DNA from: Planoprotostelium fungivorum
Lineage: Eukaryota; Evosea; Variosea; Cavosteliida; Cavosteliaceae
NCBI GenBank assembly: GCA_003024175.1
Contig: MDYQ01000463.1
Coordinates: 1-64,000, forward strand
DNA length: 64,000 bases
Reading direction: 5' to 3'
Both the position numbers and the translations under genes were made by a program. Numbering within the stretch: the first letter of the stretch is position 1; each line of letters starts with the position of its first letter. Positions 10,901 through 64,000 of the stretch are shown here, in pieces. The notes below the pieces were generated by a model. That model had not been told where the DNA came from, made no database searches, and saw nothing but the letters and a program-made list of their open reading frames with translations.

Positions 10901-12624
10901 CGTAACGTAAATACGCACCGCTACCGCAATCGCAAGACGACCATCATGTACAGTCTGTCTTTGGGGTTTGTCGTCTTCATGGCCGCCACGTTATCCCTGC
11001 AGGTGGATCCATCGATGGCAGGTTGTAGTCTGACGTGCTGTAGGTAGAATCCTTCACGGAGATGCAGAAGAAGACGGGAGGGGGGTTCGTCAAGTTTTAC
11101 GGTCGATCGAAAGATGATTTCGGTCCCATCAAACCATATGAAGAATATTTGGAGACACAATCTGTGGTGCAAGATTGGGCCTGGGTGAGTCACCCTCATC
11201 ACATCCATCACATCCATCACATAACATCACATCACATTACATCCATCACATTACATCCATCACATTCATCACATTCACCGTCTCACACCTCTCAGAACAC
11301 GCTCGCCATGGACGTGAAGCGCGAAGACAGCCAATTCTACGTCTCGAACATCGGCCGAGTCGTCAAAGACAAAGCCACCGTCGTCGCCATCACCCCAAAC
11401 TTCTTCCAAGTCACCTTCGATTTCTTAACCATCGCATCCGAAGGTAAAGACACGTCTCTCATCTTCAACCGACTCGGCCAAACACGAAGCATCTTTGGCC
11501 GAGTTGGTTAAGGCGCCGTCTTAAGGCGGCGGTTCCTTCGGGAGCATGGGTTCAAGTCCCATAGGATGCATCATCTTTTTTTCCCCGCTTTGTTTTTTTT
11601 CGGTTTCTCATGAGTCTCTCAGGTTCGGGTCTGTCGGCTGCGAACGGTCCGGACATGATGAGGAGTCTCTACTCTCTAAGAGGATCGACGACTGCCCTCT
11701 TATCTTCTCATGAGACGGACAAGCTTGCGCTCACGAGCGGCGACCAGATCCTCCTCTTAAACGGCAGCCGCATCTTCTCTCGCGTGAAACCTCTGGCCTA
11801 CCTCAGCTCTGCCCCCACCTTTCAGACGTTGTCACCCTTCCCCCACGATGGAACCGAAGTCTTGGTGTCGCTGACGACTTACATGAGGTGGACCAACTGC
11901 ACGTCCCTTCTGGAAATTCCTATGGACACTCTCATCATCCAGTTCAGAGATTCGGCGGGAGACGGAGACATCACCCGCGTGAGGAGAAGATTTGAAATTT
12001 GAATTCGACTGAACGTGAAAAGGTGAAAAATGCCGTTGCGGGCATTGTGGCCAGGCAGGGAAAGAACGTCAAGAGCTGGGATTATCGTGATGCGACCGTT
12101 CGAGGAAAATTCACGGGAATGATTACGGCTTACTTCTTCACATTGGCCATCGGCATCGTCATGATCATCTGTTTCTTCTCACTCATGTCATCCATGTGAG
12201 TGTCTCTATCTTGACGACGTTTCAAAACATTGCGACGGCACGATCTTTTGCGACGGCACGATCTTTTGCGACGGCACAATCATTTACGACCTCCAGGTAC
12301 ACCAACATCACAGAACAGACGAAAGAGATCGGAATCCTCATCGTGTTAGGTCTCAGCCACAAGCAAGTCTACCGCATCTATATCTACGAGGCATTCGCAG
12401 TCATCTTCTCTTCCTCCATGTTTGGACTCCTCATCGGTGCCGTCGTGGCTTGGACTATGTCTCTCCAGCAGCAGCTGTGGCAGCAGATCTCTCTCCCCTT
12501 TTATTTTCCGTGGTATTTTGTTCTCGCCACGTTCGGGCTCTCCGTTTTATTTGCGGGCTGGGCGTCATTCAAACCATTGAGAAGCTTATTCAAGGCTGAG
12601 ATCGTAGAGATATTGAGAGGATGA
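7964..12624 (+). CDS. FtsX/MacB-type multi-pass membrane permease
   Basis: A long gene of about 18 exons encodes a multi-pass membrane protein. The start is the ATG at 7964. An N-terminal membrane helix (F-F-L-A-G-F-A-V-F-I-V-V-L-L) is followed by a large extracytoplasmic region with many N-x-S/T sites (8600-9900). Next comes a set of helices (L-V-I-V-I-L-L-C-L-A-S-L-L-I-Y-S) and I-D-L-T-S-R-G-F-E-L-A-V-L-R, which is typical of FtsX-like permeases. A second extracytoplasmic part follows. The final helices carry T-K-E-I-G-I-L-I-V-L-G-L and a C-terminal P-L-R-S-L-F-K-A-E-I-V-E-I-L-R-G. This fits two FtsX (DUF214) domains in one chain, as in MacB/LolE-like transporters. No ATPase is encoded nearby. 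One intron holds a tRNA-Leu and another an 18-bp tandem repeat. The substrate is unknown. Confidence 0.75.
11196..11285. repeat. CATCACA-rich low-complexity intron
   Basis: This permease intron is largely made of imperfect repeats of CATCACAT/CATCCATC. A similar run lies in the dehydrogenase gene near 27030-27160. It looks like simple-sequence expansion without function. Confidence 0.8.
11489..11570 (+). tRNA. tRNA-Leu (anticodon AAG) inside a permease intron
   Basis: This 82-nt tRNA is identical in sequence to the other AAG copies and carries the same TCGGCCAAACACGAA leader and an oligo-T tail. It lies inside a 179-nt intron (11444-11622) of the permease gene, on the same strand. All structural elements of a working tRNA are intact. 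Confidence 0.95.
12231..12284. repeat. Three tandem 18-bp units in an intron
   Basis: The unit TGCGACGGCACGATCTTT occurs three times in a row (12231, 12249, 12267), the last with a few changes. The array sits inside the last intron of the permease gene and nearly fills it. Confidence 0.9.
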
Positions 12625-19169: not shown

Positions 19170-20794
19170 ATGAACCAAAAAGACAATTCGCCCAAAAAAT
19201 TTCTGGTCAGAAATGCCAACAATGCCCTCTTCAACTACTTCACCGTCGCACTGGCTCAGTTCTACCTCATCCTTTGTAAATATTGCCGAGGCATCAGCGA
19301 CAAGTACCGTGAACAGAATCTCACAGATGGACGTGGCGTCATCAACTTGGTGCCTCAACATTCTGGGAAGGACGGTCATTACCTGCGTTTGATGCCTGGT
19401 TCTACCTCCAACGCCATCCTACAGCTGCACTCTTCAGACCTGAATGGTGTGACACCCCACGGCTTCAAGATGAGATTCGCCTTTCTTGGAGGGAACGATG
19501 GTGGAGTCGCAGTCATCACCCAAGTCGTCCGTCACGAATGCATGGCTGGGACCAGCTTTGTTCACATACATTTTGAGAACCCCAAACTCGATAGAGGCAT
19601 CACCGACAAGCTCGGCAGATATCAATGTACACTGTTAGACACCAGAGAGACCGCCGTATGTACCTTCAAGAGTCGTACGGGTAGCCTTGTCTTTGGTAGA
19701 AAGGCTTTCAACCACGAAATGAGGATGTTCCAGTATCTGAGTGAGTCTCATCTGTGATTTACAAACACACCTTTGGCTCACACTCTACAGACAGTCAGGA
19801 TGAATCGATCTACGAGGACCTCTGGGATAGACTTCCGTACATCATGCCAGCTGCCTTCTTTGACAAACTACAGAGAGTCTACGACAAAAACGGCCCCCAC
19901 CTAGATGAGGTATAAAACAGATCATCACCTGCATCACGTCGCTCATTCGATTCAGGACACGACAAGGAGAATCAAGAGAACTGAGAAACCTCAGAAACAG
20001 AAACAAACGAAGCGGAAACACCACACAACTACGCAGAGGGTTCAGTGTGAATTAACTCAGTTGGAACGATCGAAAGACAGGGGCTCAACCTTCATCTGTT
20101 TTTCAAAAAGTGGCCACCCAATCCCGCCTCCTACCGTGGACGACAGCATGCAGCAGCTGGAATTTGAGCCCAACGATTCTGATTCTTCTGTCCCACCTCA
20201 AAGTGACTTGCAAGGAGACTTAAGGGTCGTGGATGGTATCGGCTATTCCAACCGACACATACCCCGCATGACTGAGGTACATCATCGACATTTTCTCGAT
20301 TGTGATGCGACGCAGGTATCACCTCCTGCAGAGGTCTATGCCGAGGAAATCGAGACGTCCGAACAACTTTTCGAGAGACAGAGAGTAGAGACATCGTCTA
20401 ATGAGCCGAGAGTGGCGCGTCCAGTGGAAGGTAACACCACCTCGCTCCATCGATAGGCTCACCTTCTATAGAAGATGGCCTGCCCTTCACCTCTCTTTCT
20501 TGGTGGCGCTCGGTCCAGTCATCCATGGACGAAGTGCATCAACCGGTCATCAGTACCCCCTTCTACCATTTCGGTGCTTCGGTCCTCTCTCAGGGCAACC
20601 CTTTCACTGGTCCTAGCGTCACAGACAATTACGGCTACAGCGAGCAACAAGATGAGCCTCACCTACACAGCAAGGCGGCCTCTGAGGCAGTCGGAGAATA
20701 TCTTTCAGAGACGATGCATCACTATGTCGATGAGGACCAGTTGAACTTGTTTCCAGCGTCACCTCAATATCCTTCCCTCGAAAAATTCTTTTAA
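19170..20794 (+). CDS. Four-copy family, member A; putative DNA-binding protein
   Basis: The first exon (19170 to about 19741) encodes a conserved domain of about 190 residues. It contains N-A-N-N-A-L, D-G-R-G-V-I-N-L-V-P-Q-H, M-R-F-A-F-L-G-G-N-D-G-G, F-V-H-I-H-F-E-N-P-K-L and G-S-L-V-F-G-R-K-A-F. A 50-nt intron and a short exon (D-E-S-I-Y-E-D-L-W-D-R-L-P) follow. Then comes a Lys/Arg-rich stretch (R-R-I-K-R-T-E-K-P-Q-K-Q-K-Q-T-K-R-K) that could be a nuclear signal. The C-terminal half is Ser/Pro/acid-rich and ends V-D-E-D-Q-L-N-L-F. A basic region plus acidic tail suggests a transcription factor-like protein, and the core vaguely resembles an IPT/Rel fold. Function is unproven. The ATG is the one aligned with copy C. 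Exon borders of the C-terminal half are approximate. Confidence 0.6.
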
Positions 20795-29007: not shown

Positions 29008-29108
29008 AATTTAATTGGGCAGGACGGCCGATCGTTACCGTGATCCGTGCACGTTGAATTACCGAGATTACATCTGATGGAGGCCCCGGCCGTCCGTCCA
29101 ATTCAATT
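29008..29108. repeat. Imperfect inverted repeat
   Basis: The arm AATTTAATTGGGCAGGACGG at 29008-29030 (ending CCG) is nearly the reverse complement of CGGCCGTCCGTCCAATTCAA at 29087-29108. The loop is about 56 bp. It lies upstream of family member B. It could be a hairpin, a paired protein-binding site or a remnant of a small element. Otherwise 28807-29231 holds no supported gene. Confidence 0.6.
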
Positions 29109-29231: not shown

Positions 29232-32200
29232 ATGCTGGACCTACAATTGCTGCGAGAACACTTCCGTACACAAGATAAACCGGCGTTCAGGAACATCTGT
29301 CTCGGATACATCTCTGGCGTCAAACAGACCACCTTGAACAACTTGAAGGACGGTTGTGGCATCACCAATATGGTCCACTTTCACTCCAACAATCCAGGTC
29401 GGAAGTTGTGGCCCCTCCCCGGTGCAAACTCAAAGAAGGGCCACGCTCAATTCCAAATACGGAGAGCCTGCCTGAAAGACAAAAACGCAACGATCACCAT
29501 GTCCCACAAGATCGAGTTCAGCTACTGTGGAGGAGATCAGGTAGTGACATCACGCCCCAGAGTCATCGGTTGGGAAGAGATACCGGGGACTGATCTCTTG
29601 GTCGTCTACTTCGACAGGCCAAAGCTCACAGAGACCGTCAAAGACTGCAAGAAAGGTCACATCATGTGCTCTCTGTTGGACGGAGGGGATGAAGAACTAT
29701 ATACCTACACGAGCCCTCCAGGCAGTTTCACATACTCTAGAGACAAACCGAAGGGTGAATTAAGGATCGTCCAGTATGCGAGTGAGACACACGGCAGCAT
29801 CTTCTTGACTCATACATGATAGACAGTCAAGATATTCCCACTTTTGACGACGTCTGGGACCTTCTAAGCTCGTCTGAAGGTTTCTTGGGGACACAAGCAC
29901 GACACCTTCTCACGGAGCCAGAAGGGGTTCCTGCGGTATGAGGGCTGTCATGACCACACCTTTGTCCTCAAGTCAGCCATTGAGGACTCGCGCCGTTACC
30001 ACAAGACTATCTTGCTAACTTGGATAGAGCCATCAACGCCTTTGGATCCATGCCACACCGCTACCTCTTCTTGATGACCAGGCTGCTGGGACTCCCGGCG
30101 TACATCCTCCCTATCTTGAAGGACATGTACACAGAGGCCACTCTGTACTACAACCTGCCCAACGGAGATAGAACAAGGATGTTCCGGATGAAGAAAGGAG
30201 TCAAGCAAGGGGACCCGCTGAGCCCTATAGTGTTCAACATGGGTATGGAGGCCCTACTGCGCCTGCTGGAGACATCAGAGGGATACACCTTTCACCAGAA
30301 CCGAGGAGATACATCAGCCCCTATCACTGTGAAGTCAGGGACATTTGCCGACGACCTGGTGGCATTGAACCAGACATTAAGAGGATGGGCAGACACTTCA
30401 TCCAAGATCACAACCTTTGGCAAGTGGACCGGTGTGCGCTTTGGCATCAAGAAGTGCGCTGTGTTCCCACAGTTCTACATCGACACCAAGCTGGCAACAG
30501 TGGACATTGAGTACAAGCTAGATGGAGAGACTCTACCCTGTCACACCATTGACAACTTCTACAAGTACCTTGGAAGCGACGCTGGATACTATCCGAACCA
30601 GCCTCAACTGGAAGAGAAGATGGCAAGCTTCAGAGAGAAATTGATCAAGATTGCCAGGAGTGATCTCCTCCCACACCAGATGGTCCGTCTCATTCAGGGT
30701 TGGTTGAGCCCATCATTGGAGTTCCTCATGAGGAACAACGACTTCCGTATCAAGGAGCTAGAGGTGCTGGACCGTGACATCCGCGACACCTTGAGAGGTG
30801 TCCTGATCCTACCCAAGTGGACATCCAATGCATGGTGGTATGCGCCCAAGGACATAGGTGGCCTGGGCCTCACTCCCTTGACAGACCTCAAGAGGATCTA
30901 TCGACTCCTTCAGCTGTTCAGATCCCTTACCAACCGTGACCCAGTCATCCGACACATCATTGAAGCACAGATTCACGATACTCAGAGAAGAAGAAAGGTC
31001 CGTACAACGGACGGAGAATCACGCTTCCTTGACTGGGACACTACCTCAGACAAGCTCTCAGAGACGTACGACATCCGGACCCTTATCACCAAGTGCATCC
31101 CCTACCTTGAGCGATATAACCTCTGGGTGACCGAGACGGCAAGAGGTATCTGGCAGCTGCGCAGAGGAGATGGAGAGAAGATGCATGAGACTGGCTGCTA
31201 CAACCCTGGTGAAGGACCTCCGTGTGCAGCTCTTGGGACACTACGGGGACATTTGGCTCTCTCAACCACATCAAGGACGAACAGCGCGGGTGCTCAAGGA
31301 GAAGAAGCCCACTACTGCCTCCATCAAGTGGGTGCACGCACCTGGCCCGCTCTGGCCTGAGGAATACAACTGGGCAATCAAGGCTCGCCTCAGACTACAT
31401 CCATGCCTGTCCATCCGTAAGATGTGGGACCCCACCATTGACGATCAGTGCCGACGATGTGGGAAAGCTAAAGAGACACTCAACCACATATTGGGCAACT
31501 GCCTGTACACCATGGACGCCATACGGGGCCGCCACGACCGCATCAACCGCTTCTTGGAAGATCAACTCAAACCCCATTGGCCTCAGGTGCTCCACGACCA
31601 ACGAACCATACTCAGAGGAAACCTCCAACGCCCCGACCTCCAACTGATCAACTCCGACACCTCAACCTACAACCTCTTGGAACTTCGACTCACACGAGAG
31701 GACGTGGGGTGCTACGACGTAGCATACCAGCACAAGTGGGACAAGTACCAGCCAATTGTCCGCCAACTCAGAGGAAAAGGATACGACGTCAACTACTGCC
31801 CTATCATCATCGGCTTCACCGGCATCATTCCGGAGGAGACCATCAAGAAATTCAGTGAATCGACTGGACTGCCCATTGCCAAGTCGAGATCAATCCTGAC
31901 CACGGCCTCCCACATGGCCATTCGAGGGAGCTGGAAAGTGTGGCAAGTCTTCAACCACGGACTACGAGAAGGATAACCCACTGCCCCCATCACTACTACC
32001 ATAACACACATAGCTATACACAACAGGCCCTGGTAGGCCAGGACTCTCCGCGAGGAGAATATCCTCTATGATAGTGGTCATAGAATAAAAGTCTAAGTCT
32101 AAGTCTAAGGGAAAATGCCAGAGAGTATACGAACTGTCCAGATCTCAGGTACGTCATCAACATCACACCACAATGATGATCTTGAATTAGGTTTCCAGCA

Positions 32201-32620
32201 ATCCGGCTGCAACATCTGTCGTCCCGACTGAGAAGAAGAGAAAAGAAAAGCGTAAGATGACACAAGAGACCAAACCTTCCTTTAAGAAGCAGAAAGCGCA
32301 AGAGCTATCGATTGAGAGAGGTGATCTCATCTGTCTCCAACTAGGGACTCACCGTCTCAAGATGATGACACCTCTCCCCCCTACCAGCCCTCCTCCTTCG
32401 AGCTCAACTCACCGGAGTTAGATGAATGGTGTCTGAGGACGACAGGTGATGTCACTTCATCGTCGAGAACGGAGGCTCATCCCCTTTAGACATATCGTCC
32501 ACCCTCTACGATGAAGGCATGGGTGACACCTTTCCATCTCAGCACACGGAAATGGATCAATATCCTCCTTTCCATTTACCGGATGAATCTATACAGGAAC
32601 TCTTGAATATGCTTAGATGA
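29232..32620 (+). CDS. Four-copy family, member B, with a LINE in an intron
   Basis: The first exon encodes the family core: N-N-L-K-D-G-C-G-I-T-N-M-V-H-F-H, H-K-I-E-F-S-Y-C-G-G-D, L-L-V-V-Y-F-D-R-P-K-L, C-S-L-L-D-G-G-D-E-E and G-S-F-T-Y-S-R-D-K-P-K-G. A short exon (I-P-T-F-D-D-V-W-D-L-L) follows an intron near 29790. The next intron, starting near 29936, has been expanded by a LINE. Coding resumes near 32190 with K-K-R-K-E-K-R-K-M-T-Q-E-T-K-P-S-F-K-K-Q-K, an obvious nuclear-signal-like run. It ends in an acidic, aromatic tail (F-H-L-P-D-E-S-I-Q-E-L-L-N-M-L-R). The basic run resembles that of member D more than A or C. Because the insertion is intronic, the gene may still work. C-terminal exon borders are approximate. 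Confidence 0.55.
29939..32109 (+). mobile_element. 5'-truncated LINE with restriction-like endonuclease (R2-like)
   Basis: This is a non-LTR retrotransposon copy missing its 5' part. It begins at the start of the reverse transcriptase with H-T-F-V-L-K-S-A-I-E-D-S-R-R. The active-site motif is F-A-D-D (near 30350), preceded by K-G-V-K-Q-G-D-P-L-S-P. Downstream lies C-R-R-C-G-K-x(6)-H-x(4)-C, a zinc knuckle. It is followed by R-P-D-L-Q-L ... L-L-E-L-R-L ... Y-Q-H-K-W-D-K-Y, which fits a restriction-like endonuclease as in R2, R4 and NeSL types. Coding is shifted by one base near 30015 and again near 31190, so this copy is dead. The 3' end has three GTCTAA units as tail. No target duplication is obvious. 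It sits in an intron of family member B. Confidence 0.85.
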
Positions 32621-36979: not shown

Positions 36980-37319
36980 AACGAAGAAGAGATGAGAGGG
37001 GGGTGATTGGATTGGATTGAAATGTCCTTCAAAGTCAGAGAGAACACCATCAACACGCGAGATGTACAAGATGCTTGACCTTTTTTGAACCGCTTTGGCT
37101 GTCGAGAGAGAGACCATCAAGATGTTAAATAGAGAGATGATTTAGAGTGTTTTTTTTTCCTCCGTCTCTGTAAGCTGTCAAACTTTCCTTCCCGAAGCAA
37201 GGCTCAGATATTCCTCGAGGTGGATAGCCGATCCACACATCAACATCATCACTTCGACATAGACCACCGTGAAACGACCTCAGGCAGAGCCACCATCGGG
37301 TGACCATACTTCAACGATC

Positions 37320-37799
37320 ATGCACAGGCTGATCAGGAGATTCATGGAGTATCCTGTTGCTGGCGAGATGCAAAGTCCCACTGCACCACCTCCGCCTATA
37401 CTTCATCACATGACTTCCATCAGCACCACGACGACCGAATATGTGGCTAAGAGAGAGATGCCCAACTATATCACGCCTTCTCCTCCTCAACCACCCGCAG
37501 TTCTTCAACAGCAACAAGAGGAACAGTCAGAAGAGATACAATCCAATGCACATGTACAGAGATGGATGGCCAACTATGAGAAGCTCAAGATGTTTAAGAA
37601 GAAGTATGGAACGACAAACGTGACGAGGACGAAGGATGAGTTCAAGACTCTGGGCAATTGGGTTCACGAGCAGAGGAGGAAATACAGAAACGGGGCACTG
37701 TTGCCGTTCCAACGACAGATGTTGGACTCATTAGACTTCGATTGGGTCAAACGACTGCCGAGCTCGACAAATAAGATGATAGATGAAGACGATACATAA
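37320..37799 (+). CDS. Helicase-associated-domain protein
   Basis: A single exon of 159 codons. The N-terminal half is rich in Pro, Thr and Gln. The C-terminal half contains W-M-A-N-Y-E-K-L-K-M-F-K-K-K-Y-G-T-T-N-V, then L-G-N-W-V-H-E-Q-R-R-K-Y and L-P-F-Q-R-Q-M-L-D-S-L-D-F-D-W. That is one full helicase-associated (HA, Myb-like) repeat, as found in bacterial helicases and in expanded families in diatoms, haptophytes and some amoebae. No helicase is attached. The fold suggests nucleic-acid binding. The first in-frame ATG was taken as start; an upstream GTG is not a likely eukaryotic start. Confidence 0.75.
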   Translation: MHRLIRRFMEYPVAGEMQSPTAPPPPILHHMTSISTTTTEYVAKREMPNYITPSPPQPPAVLQQQQEEQSEEIQSNAHVQRWMANYEKLKMFKKKYGTTNVTRTKDEFKTLGNWVHEQRRKYRNGALLPFQRQMLDSLDFDWVKRLPSSTNKMIDEDDT

Positions 37800-45667: not shown

Positions 45668-46972
45668 CTAAAAGTCATAGAAAGAGGACGGATTCCAGTC
45701 CTGTGGTGATGCTCGAATCAAGTCCAACAGCTCCTGGCTGTGGTCGAAACGGTCCGTGATGGTGGGGCCATCGAGATTGTCTTGAAAGAGGAGGGAAAGA
45801 TCGAAATGGTCGTAGTCCGAGCGGGGAGAGGGAAGAGAGGTGACGGCCCAGTCTTCTTCTATAGAGGATGAGTCTTTCGATGGATAGAAATGGTTTCACC
45901 TTTCACTGGATGTGCCACTGTTGGCTCAATAGAAGCCCTCCGTCTCTTACAACGTTTCTTATTCGTCTTCATTTCCTCGGCAGAGATTTGTGTAAGAGGT
46001 GATGTCTGTGTCGCATCAGGATCGTCAAGATGATGGTGTCGATGATGTACCTCAGATATGCTGGGCTCGTGTCGATTGATGTAACTGATATCGTCCTCGA
46101 CGTCTCTCGTTGGAGAGGTGACATCACATTCCATCGCTGAAAGATACTGAGCCTCTGTCTCTTGGCTGTGGGGCGCTTGGCCTTCGACTTTGTTTGTTTC
46201 TTCTTCTGGGGTCTCTTGATTCTCTTTGTCGTGTCCTGAATGGAATGAGACGAGATGCAGGTGACGATCTGTTCTGTACCTCAGGGTGAGGGCCATTTTG
46301 TTCGTAGACGCTCTGTAGTTCTTCAAAGAAGGCAGCTGGCATGATGTCCGGAAGTCTGTCCCAGAGGTCCTCGTAGATCGATTCATCCTGACTGTCTGTA
46401 GGGCATGAGCCAAAGCTGTGTCTGTGACGAGACTCACTCAGATACTGGAACATCCTCATTTCGTCGTTGAAAGCCTTTCTACCAAAGACAAGGCTACCCG
46501 CAGGACTGTTGAAGGTGTACACGGCAGTCTCTGTGGTATCTAACAGTGTGCATCGGTATCTACCGTGCTCGTCGGTGATACCTCTATCGAGAATGGGTGT
46601 CTCAAAATGTAGGTGGATGAAATTGGTCCCAGCCAAGGTCTCGTGATGGACGACTTTGGTGACGGTTGCGACTCCACCTTTCTTCCCTCCAAGAAAGGCG
46701 AATCTCATCTTGAAGCCGTGGGGTGTCACACCATTCAGGTCTGAAGAGTGCAGCTGTAGGATGGCGTTGAAGGTAGAACCAGGCATCAAACGCAGGTAAT
46801 GATCGGCCTTTCCTGGATGCTGAGGCAGCAAGTTGATGATGCCACGTCCATCAGTGAGATTCTGTTCACGGAACTTGTTGCTGATGCTACGGCTGTATTT
46901 GGAGAGGATGGTGTAGAACTGAGCCAGTGCGATGATGAAGTAGAGGGCATTGTTGGCATTTCTGGGCGGCAT
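45668..46972 (-). CDS. Four-copy family, member C
   Basis: The closest relative of member A. The core has N-A-N-N-A-L-Y-F, D-G-R-G-I-I-N-L-L-P-Q-H, the identical H-S-S-D-L-N-G-V-T-P-H-G-F-K-M-R-F-A-F-L-G-G, and F-I-H-L-H-F-E-T-P. A 42-nt intron near 46430 is followed by D-E-S-I-Y-E-D-L-W-D-R-L-P-D-I-M-P-A-A-F-F. Then come a basic, Gln/Glu/Lys-rich part and an acidic segment with S-E-V-H-H-R-H-H-H. The tail is F-D-H-S-Q-E-L-L-D-L-I-R ending F-Y-D-F at 45668. The 5' flank (46973-47240) is also shared with member A. The two are inverted relative to each other and 25 kb apart. Exon borders near 45900 and 46250 are approximate. Confidence 0.6.
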
Positions 46973-47240
46973 GGTGTGTGGAGAGGAAAGAGAGGAGAGG
47001 ATCGTGGCTTCTGCGGTACCACTAGTGAGGTCAAAGTAATGAAGACGCCGACCAGCTTGCTACTTGTCGCTCGGGAATACTTTGACTGCAGATCCATCTA
47101 GAATGCAACACAGACGGCCAGGCGGCCACCTTATCAGAAATAGGGGGACCATTTGACACTTGGATTTGCAGGGAATCTCCCCGTCTGGGAATTACCTGTT
47201 CGTGTGAAGGAGAACGACAGACGTCCTGTGAGGCGTGACC
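46973..47240 (-). promoter_or_regulatory. Conserved 5' flank of family copy C
   Basis: These bases align with 18890-19169 upstream of member A, both directly preceding the ATG. An ATG at about 47097 opens a short frame (D-L-Q-S-K-Y-S) that in copy A has no ATG, so a coding role is unlikely. Confidence 0.55.
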
Positions 47241-63347: not shown

Positions 63348-64000
63348 CTAAAAGTCCAGCAGTAGTAAATCTTCCAGGGGCACATCATCCAATGACTCGA
63401 ATGTGAAAGGATAAGAATGGACTACTTGTGTGTCCTGCATCGTTTCGAAGAGGACATCTAAAGGGATGAGCTTCCGTTCTCGATGATGATGTGACGTCAC
63501 CTGTCTCTCTCAGAATGTGGTTCTCGGCGTCCATCGTTTCGGCATCGGGAAGATGAAGTTGATGTAGCTCCATGACGTGAGACTTGTGATGTTGTTTGTA
63601 TCCGGGTCCGTTTACGACGGCCAGATCATCAAGCGGCTTGCATTGAGCGAGGTTGGGCAAAAGAGAGCTGTAAGTTTTGAAATCGGGCTGGATAGACGCC
63701 GACGAGGGGGCAGAGGTGAAGGATGGTGAAACTCTTCGAGACGATGAGTCTAGACGGAGACCACCTCTCTTGGTCAACAGCTCTTGCGCTCTCTGTCTCT
63801 TAGAGGAGGGTTTGATCTTCTGCTGTCCTTGTGTCATCTTCTCTGCTTGCTTCCTTTTCAGAGGCTTGTACCGCTCGATTCTCTCGGTCAAGTTCTGAAC
63901 CGTGTTATAATGGTATTTCATCTGATGATGATGCACCTCGTTTGTATAGGGTCCGTTCTCTTCGTAGACTCTCTGAAGTTCTTTTAAGAAGCCACCCGGC
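63348..64000 (-). CDS. Four-copy family, member D (cut by the window end)
   Basis: Only the C-terminal half is in the window. It begins with G-G-F-L-K-E-L-Q-R-V-Y-E-E-N-G-P-Y, the counterpart of F-F-E-E-L-Q-S-V-Y-E-Q-N-G-P-H in member C. An intron ending near 63902 leads to a basic part with K-M-T-Q-G-Q-Q-K-I-K-P-S-S-K-R-Q-R-A-Q-E-L, very like member B. The acidic tail ends P-L-E-D-L-L-L-L-D-F at 63348, the kind of hydrophobic/acidic mix seen in activation domains. The conserved N-terminal core should lie just beyond base 64000. Confidence 0.55.

Follow-up and report, generated by a model that had tools for sequence, protein, structure and literature searches.

A dispersed and partly decayed gene family of Planoprotostelium fungivorum with a candidate role in nuclear regulation

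Four related genes in the window

The window analysed in this work, i.e. the whole stretch of 64,000 bp at positions 1-64000 of contig C432, belongs to a genome of 36.86 Mb assembled in 471 contigs. It holds four related genes, A (19170-20794, + strand), B (29232-32620, + strand), C (45668-46972, - strand) and D (from 63348 past the window edge, - strand), at the places assigned to them in the original prediction. Their homology is far above chance, the reading frame of C matching A with an E-value of 2e-91, D with 3e-44 and B with 6e-14. The predicted pairing of A with C was confirmed by 79 % identity between the proteins and 80 % between the DNA sequences over 1045 bp.

Gene A was modelled with four exons on the + strand. 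The first (19170..19740) is an open frame encoding the core and is followed, after a 50-bp phase 1 intron, by the exon of the SQDESIYEDLWDRLP... segment (19791..19909). The third (19956..20430), preceded by a phase 0 intron, carries the basic, NLS-like stretch DTTRRIKRTEKPQKQKQTKRKHH and a spacer. The fourth (20472..20794), preceded by a phase 1 intron, encodes an acidic/hydrophobic C-terminal tail with a net charge of -12. The model, whose splice sites were picked by hand, stops exactly at 20794.

On the - strand, the spliced model of C includes an open first exon coding for the core (46438..46972), a second exon with the DESIYEDLW segment (46280..46395) and a region of basic stretch and acidic tail (45668..46235). 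The 42-bp intron before exon 2 is itself open, and the ORF of C therefore reads through it. Core, second exon and basic stretch are open, but in the present model the basic exon and the acidic tail are not read in one continuous frame, a point that the original prediction does not mention. For D, the window covers the 3' part of the gene (63348..64000, - strand), i.e. exon 4 (63348-63457), exon 3 (63501-63894) and part of exon 2. The spliced model, again with hand-picked splice sites, ends exactly at 63348, and the core lies outside the window with a start codon at contig position 64655.

Gene B, also on the + strand, is interrupted, which the original prediction had not noted. Its first exon (29232..29781) encodes a divergent core, identified by search match and alignment with the exon end set by eye. 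The 5' part of exon 2 (29823..29894, by eye, end approximate) is severed by an R2-like non-LTR retrotransposon in the same orientation (29895..32110, boundaries approximate and set by eye). The remainder of exon 2, the basic stretch and the tail were placed by eye at 32111..32620, where short DNA matches to the 3' end of D occur (75 and 86 %). The insert matches RVT_1 in Pfam (E = 1e-9) and has TAAGTC repeats at its 3' end. The usual target of R2 elements is the rDNA. The insert in B resembles them in its reverse transcriptase, whose best match among PDB sequences is an R2 retrotransposon protein (E = 1e-28), but differs in being apparently 5'-truncated and in occupying a protein-coding exon instead of rDNA.

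Copy number and condition of the copies

The four members originally predicted turned out to be too few. The family comprises at least 11 loci (A-K) dispersed on eight contigs in both orientations, such counts from genome searches being lower bounds. Ten loci were reached with the C frame and with the B, G and I cores as queries, and the eleventh, K, by a motif search. Besides A-D on C432, the loci lie on contigs C461 (E), C2 (F), C51 (G), C13 (H), C152 (I), C470 (J) and C12 (K). Apart from that of A, the cores are only 26-51 % identical to C.

The copies are not all evident pseudogenes, as A, D and I retain open multi-exon frames of 495, 391 and 299 residues, respectively (hand-picked splice sites). 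The core and second exon are also open in G and F. The end of the G model is less certain, no canonical donor being seen by eye for a third intron; in F, the start codon is uncertain and the frame stops, by eye, shortly past the basic stretch. At least five of the 11 copies were judged by eye to be broken, namely B by the insert in exon 2, E by shifted frames and truncation, H and J by frame shifts inside the core, and K by deletion of most of the core. This is a real gene family, larger and more decayed than originally predicted; its regulatory reading is interesting but unproven.

Exon plan and charge layout

One exon plan is common to the five modelled copies (A, C, D, G and I): the core, about 175-190 residues long, comes first, then a short exon and then a third. 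In all five, intron 1 measures 42-50 bp and is in phase 1, and intron 2 measures 42-49 bp and is in phase 0; a third intron, in phase 1, stands ahead of the tail in A and D. The short exon is usually followed by a basic stretch and then by an acidic tail. The succession of core, DESIYEDLW-type exon, basic stretch and acidic tail described in the original prediction was recovered on hand-cut segments, with net charges of +9 (A), +13 (C) and +11 (D) for the basic segments and of -12 (A), -9 (D) and -20 (I) for the tails, that of D having 17 hydrophobic residues out of 36. Both kinds of segment are found together in A and D, C having the basic one with its tail out of frame and I the acidic one only. 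As I runs directly from the second exon into the acidic tail, the basic exon is not universal; G is devoid of a strong basic stretch and none was seen by eye in J. A helix was predicted in the second exon for C only, at low confidence.

Searches against known families

The description of the family as unrecognised held within Pfam, NCBIfam, PHROGs and the PDB sequences, where no named domain family was matched. With A, B and C as queries, Pfam returned no family at E ≤ 1; at E ≤ 10, the scan of nine cores (A-I, i.e. all but J and K) yielded two families, each with one core and with a best E-value of 0.077, neither of them credible. Nothing credible was obtained from NCBIfam and PHROGs with A, B and C. 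Among the PDB sequences, the best match to C had an E-value of 0.12 and the nine-core profile gave nothing at E ≤ 10. Known DNA-binding domains were matched neither in Pfam (cores A-I) nor in the PDB sequences (C and nine-core profile), and no conserved Cys/His cluster was seen in the core alignment. Viral contigs (C as query) and prokaryote genomes (A as query) provided no confirmed relative, single-protein scans of this type reaching close relatives only. The best match in NCBIfam and PHROGs, of C to Se_dep_XDH (E = 0.0014, 16.8 bits for a cut-off of 830), was taken as chance. Judged by sequence comparison against these four collections, the family appears to be novel, provisionally.

Evolution of the family

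A tree of the cores was inferred from ten sequences, three of which are partial. Groupings were obtained for A and C (support of 95 for the branch separating both from the rest), G and H (94) and I and J (100); B, very divergent, falls with G/H and I/J (85). A pairing of B with D had also been proposed: it holds for two short 3' stretches only (86 % over 59 bp and 75 % over 84 bp), in the core tree, D joins E, located on a different contig (UFboot 91), and the sequence of B is divergent.

Core dN/dS ratios were calculated for eight pairs by the Nei-Gojobori method with bootstrap bounds. They amount to 0.55 for A-C (0.32-0.97), 0.51 for D-E, 0.43 for C-D, 0.42 for A-D, 0.46 for G-H (107 codons), 0.25 for C-F, 0.58 for B-D and 0.56 for I-J (first segment only), dS being near saturation for C-F and B-D. 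In each of the eight pairs, the upper bound stays under 1, if only just for A-C. Because E, H and J are broken, the pairs including one of them blend constraint and decay. The range of 0.25-0.58 points to a loose purifying selection on the core.

The original prediction had further suggested a recent, ongoing expansion. Recent events are indeed found in H-K, about 91 % identical at the DNA level in two blocks (1977 and 1538 bp), flanks included, and in A-C (dS of about 0.19), but D-E, G-H and I-J are older (dS 0.34-0.70) and B is very divergent. The identity between H and K reaches past the gene and marks a segmental duplication. As five or more of the 11 copies are broken, birth-and-death describes the family better than a burst.

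A separate observation concerns the flanks of two copies: the stretch from -179 to -15 upstream of D is also present upstream of E, in inverted orientation and with 71 % identity.

A rare element upstream of several copies

The 10-mer GGACGGCCGG lies upstream of B on the - strand (29086..29095, from the genome motif count), and a motif scan gave a second element with one mismatch (GGACGGCCGA) at 29022..29031 on the + strand. Upstream of C, a GGCCG-rich stretch resembling the B element was noticed by eye (47109..47130, - strand). The exact element is absent upstream of A, C, D, E and F. In ten stretches totalling about 141 kb once overlap was removed, GACGGCCGG occurs five times, always upstream of a copy (B, G, H, I and J), most of the stretches other than the window having been picked because they hold copies.

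Over the 36.86 Mb of the genome, GGACGGCCGG has 29 sites, compared with 19 for the reversed control, and is therefore rare without clear overall enrichment. Five of these sites stand no more than about 150 bp ahead of copies B, G, I, J and K; over 11 copies x 150 bp, 0.0013 sites would be expected at the genome rate for a motif that was, however, chosen after looking. One of them revealed copy K, missing from the protein search results. Around the 25 sites other than those of B, G, I and J, K is the sole further copy, the remaining matches being at chance level or very short. Open frames of at least 120 aa hold 19 of the 24 other sites as well as the sites of B, H and I, i.e. overlap with an ORF does not discriminate.

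In a shared-k-mer test on the 250 bp upstream of seven copies (A, B, C, D, F, G and I, the start of F being approximate), GGACGGCCGG was the only 10-mer common to three regions, a number reached in nine of 1000 Markov resamples. The 9-mers gave a weaker result, as 52 of 1000 resamples reached three of seven and one unrelated 9-mer did so too. Among the literature matches listed for GGACGGCCGG, nothing was obviously relevant in the portions of text available. A query on the 9-mer as a promoter motif had one match, which concerns a LytTR-type response regulator. Since B, G/H/K and I/J stand on one side of the core tree, common ancestry of their upstream regions is a possible cause of the distribution; even so, the retention of the element across such divergent cores argues for function.

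Two contigs, C150 and C272 (L065 and L074), have identical 90 bases round a motif site within an open frame, by duplication or assembly redundancy.

Candidate function of the family proteins

Our preferred reading, to which we give a probability of about one half on the strength of protein architecture, is that the family encodes nuclear transcription regulators evolving under birth-and-death. The order of core, short exon, basic stretch and acidic-hydrophobic tail is the one expected of such a regulator. The core would most likely serve DNA binding, dimerisation or both. The DESIYEDLW exon may add a short extension of helical form, nuclear localisation could be directed by the basic exon, and the acidic-hydrophobic tail could act as an activation domain. 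Through the rare upstream element GACGGCCGG (B, G/H/K and I/J), family members could control each other or themselves. We infer in this way nuclear location, DNA binding, activation and autoregulation for the family proteins.

A more ambitious proposal, which we put forward tentatively, is that the core is a new lineage-restricted eukaryotic DNA-binding domain and that the family forms a self-regulating network via the palindrome-like GGACGGCCGG, with turnover by segmental duplication and decay. DNA-binding domain repertoires are described as strongly lineage-specific in a study that also calls knowledge of transcriptional regulation still very limited for the protists it covers (PMC2937223). 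With its exon plan conserved, its core unassigned and a candidate target site at hand, the family would make the existence of a new DNA-binding domain directly testable, the strongest prediction being that a family core binds GGACGGCCGG.

The proteins might instead be nuclear cofactors or chromatin adaptors, with a core that contacts another protein instead of DNA and a tail that recruits machinery. This is possible, if rather doubtful: basic and acidic segments suit any nuclear regulator and no DNA-binding signature was recognised in cores A-I, but the rare common upstream element suggests a dedicated regulatory loop, although another protein could bind it.

That the family consists of very divergent Rel/NF-kB or velvet-type transcription factors, with an Ig-like fold, is unlikely. 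In Rel proteins, the core is succeeded by a basic stretch and then by an acidic, activation-like tail; the present family shows the same order, and its core may be strand-rich as well. AlphaFold models of C aligned with A and B (pLDDT 43) and of the C core alone (pLDDT 49) both start with an N-terminal helix and continue mostly with strands, seven to nine of them being predicted in the core. Their confidence is low and so no fold is assignable; searched with Foldseek, these low-confidence models had no match at E ≤ 0.001 in the PDB (both models) or in BFVD (first model). Rel/TIG homology, prompted by the strand order and by the resemblance of HFETP to FRTP of p65, received no support from hhalign: in a comparison with five RHD dimerisation domains (four of the five Rel sequences being provisional), the best Rel match does align HFETP with the p65 FRTP segment, but with a P of 0.18 over seven columns against 0.36 for the reversed control, which is not significant. 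None of the nine cores scanned (A-I) had an RHD or velvet match in Pfam at E ≤ 10, and the RHD recognition-loop motif was not visible by eye in the core alignment. Sites of the kB-like type GGGA-N4-CC exist upstream of C and D, but they are not enriched in the window (four matches vs 7.7 expected), and autoregulation via kB sites was dropped for that reason. Rel/NF-kB proteins are reported in unicellular opisthokonts (PMC8763368), and the fungal velvet regulators are described as DNA-binding and structurally similar to NF-kB. Should the core turn out to be a divergent form of a known fold, the family would keep its value as an example of birth-and-death turnover.

An origin as mobile-element cargo or as a domesticated gene, mostly decaying now, seems quite improbable. 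Dispersal in both orientations, the proportion of broken copies and the retrotransposon inside B would fit it, but the five modelled copies keep their introns and were therefore not retroposed, the H-K duplication reaches past the gene, dN/dS is below 1 in the eight core pairs, and none of the inverted-repeat pairs shown bounds a copy at the five of 11 loci covered (A, C, D, G and I, with five of six pairs shown for D). Finally, fast-evolving recognition proteins unrelated to transcription are very improbable, for high turnover and the low identity of most cores to C would agree with them, but neither the dN/dS ratios below 1 (8/8 pairs) nor the basic and acidic segments, which would be left without an obvious role, do so.

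Other features of the window and assembly

Six of the seven tRNA genes of the window are tRNA-Leu genes (five AAG and one TAG; 7657, 11489, 13216, 44754, 47325 and 58387), one of which is about 350 bp upstream of C, and two more are found just outside the window (L006:7984 and L007:5899). Two domains were detected on this eukaryotic contig, an FtsX-like permease C-terminal domain at 12091-12621 (E = 1e-17) and a helicase-associated HA domain at 37263-37796 (E = 1e-15). Domain searches of the assembly gave seven Zn_clus matches and none to chlorophyll-binding proteins. Elsewhere in the assembly, contig C346 (L054:5502-7644) carries eukaryotic SSU and 5.8S rRNA genes, and the surrounding rDNA looks AT-rich by eye in comparison with the window, the GC content of which is about 48 %.
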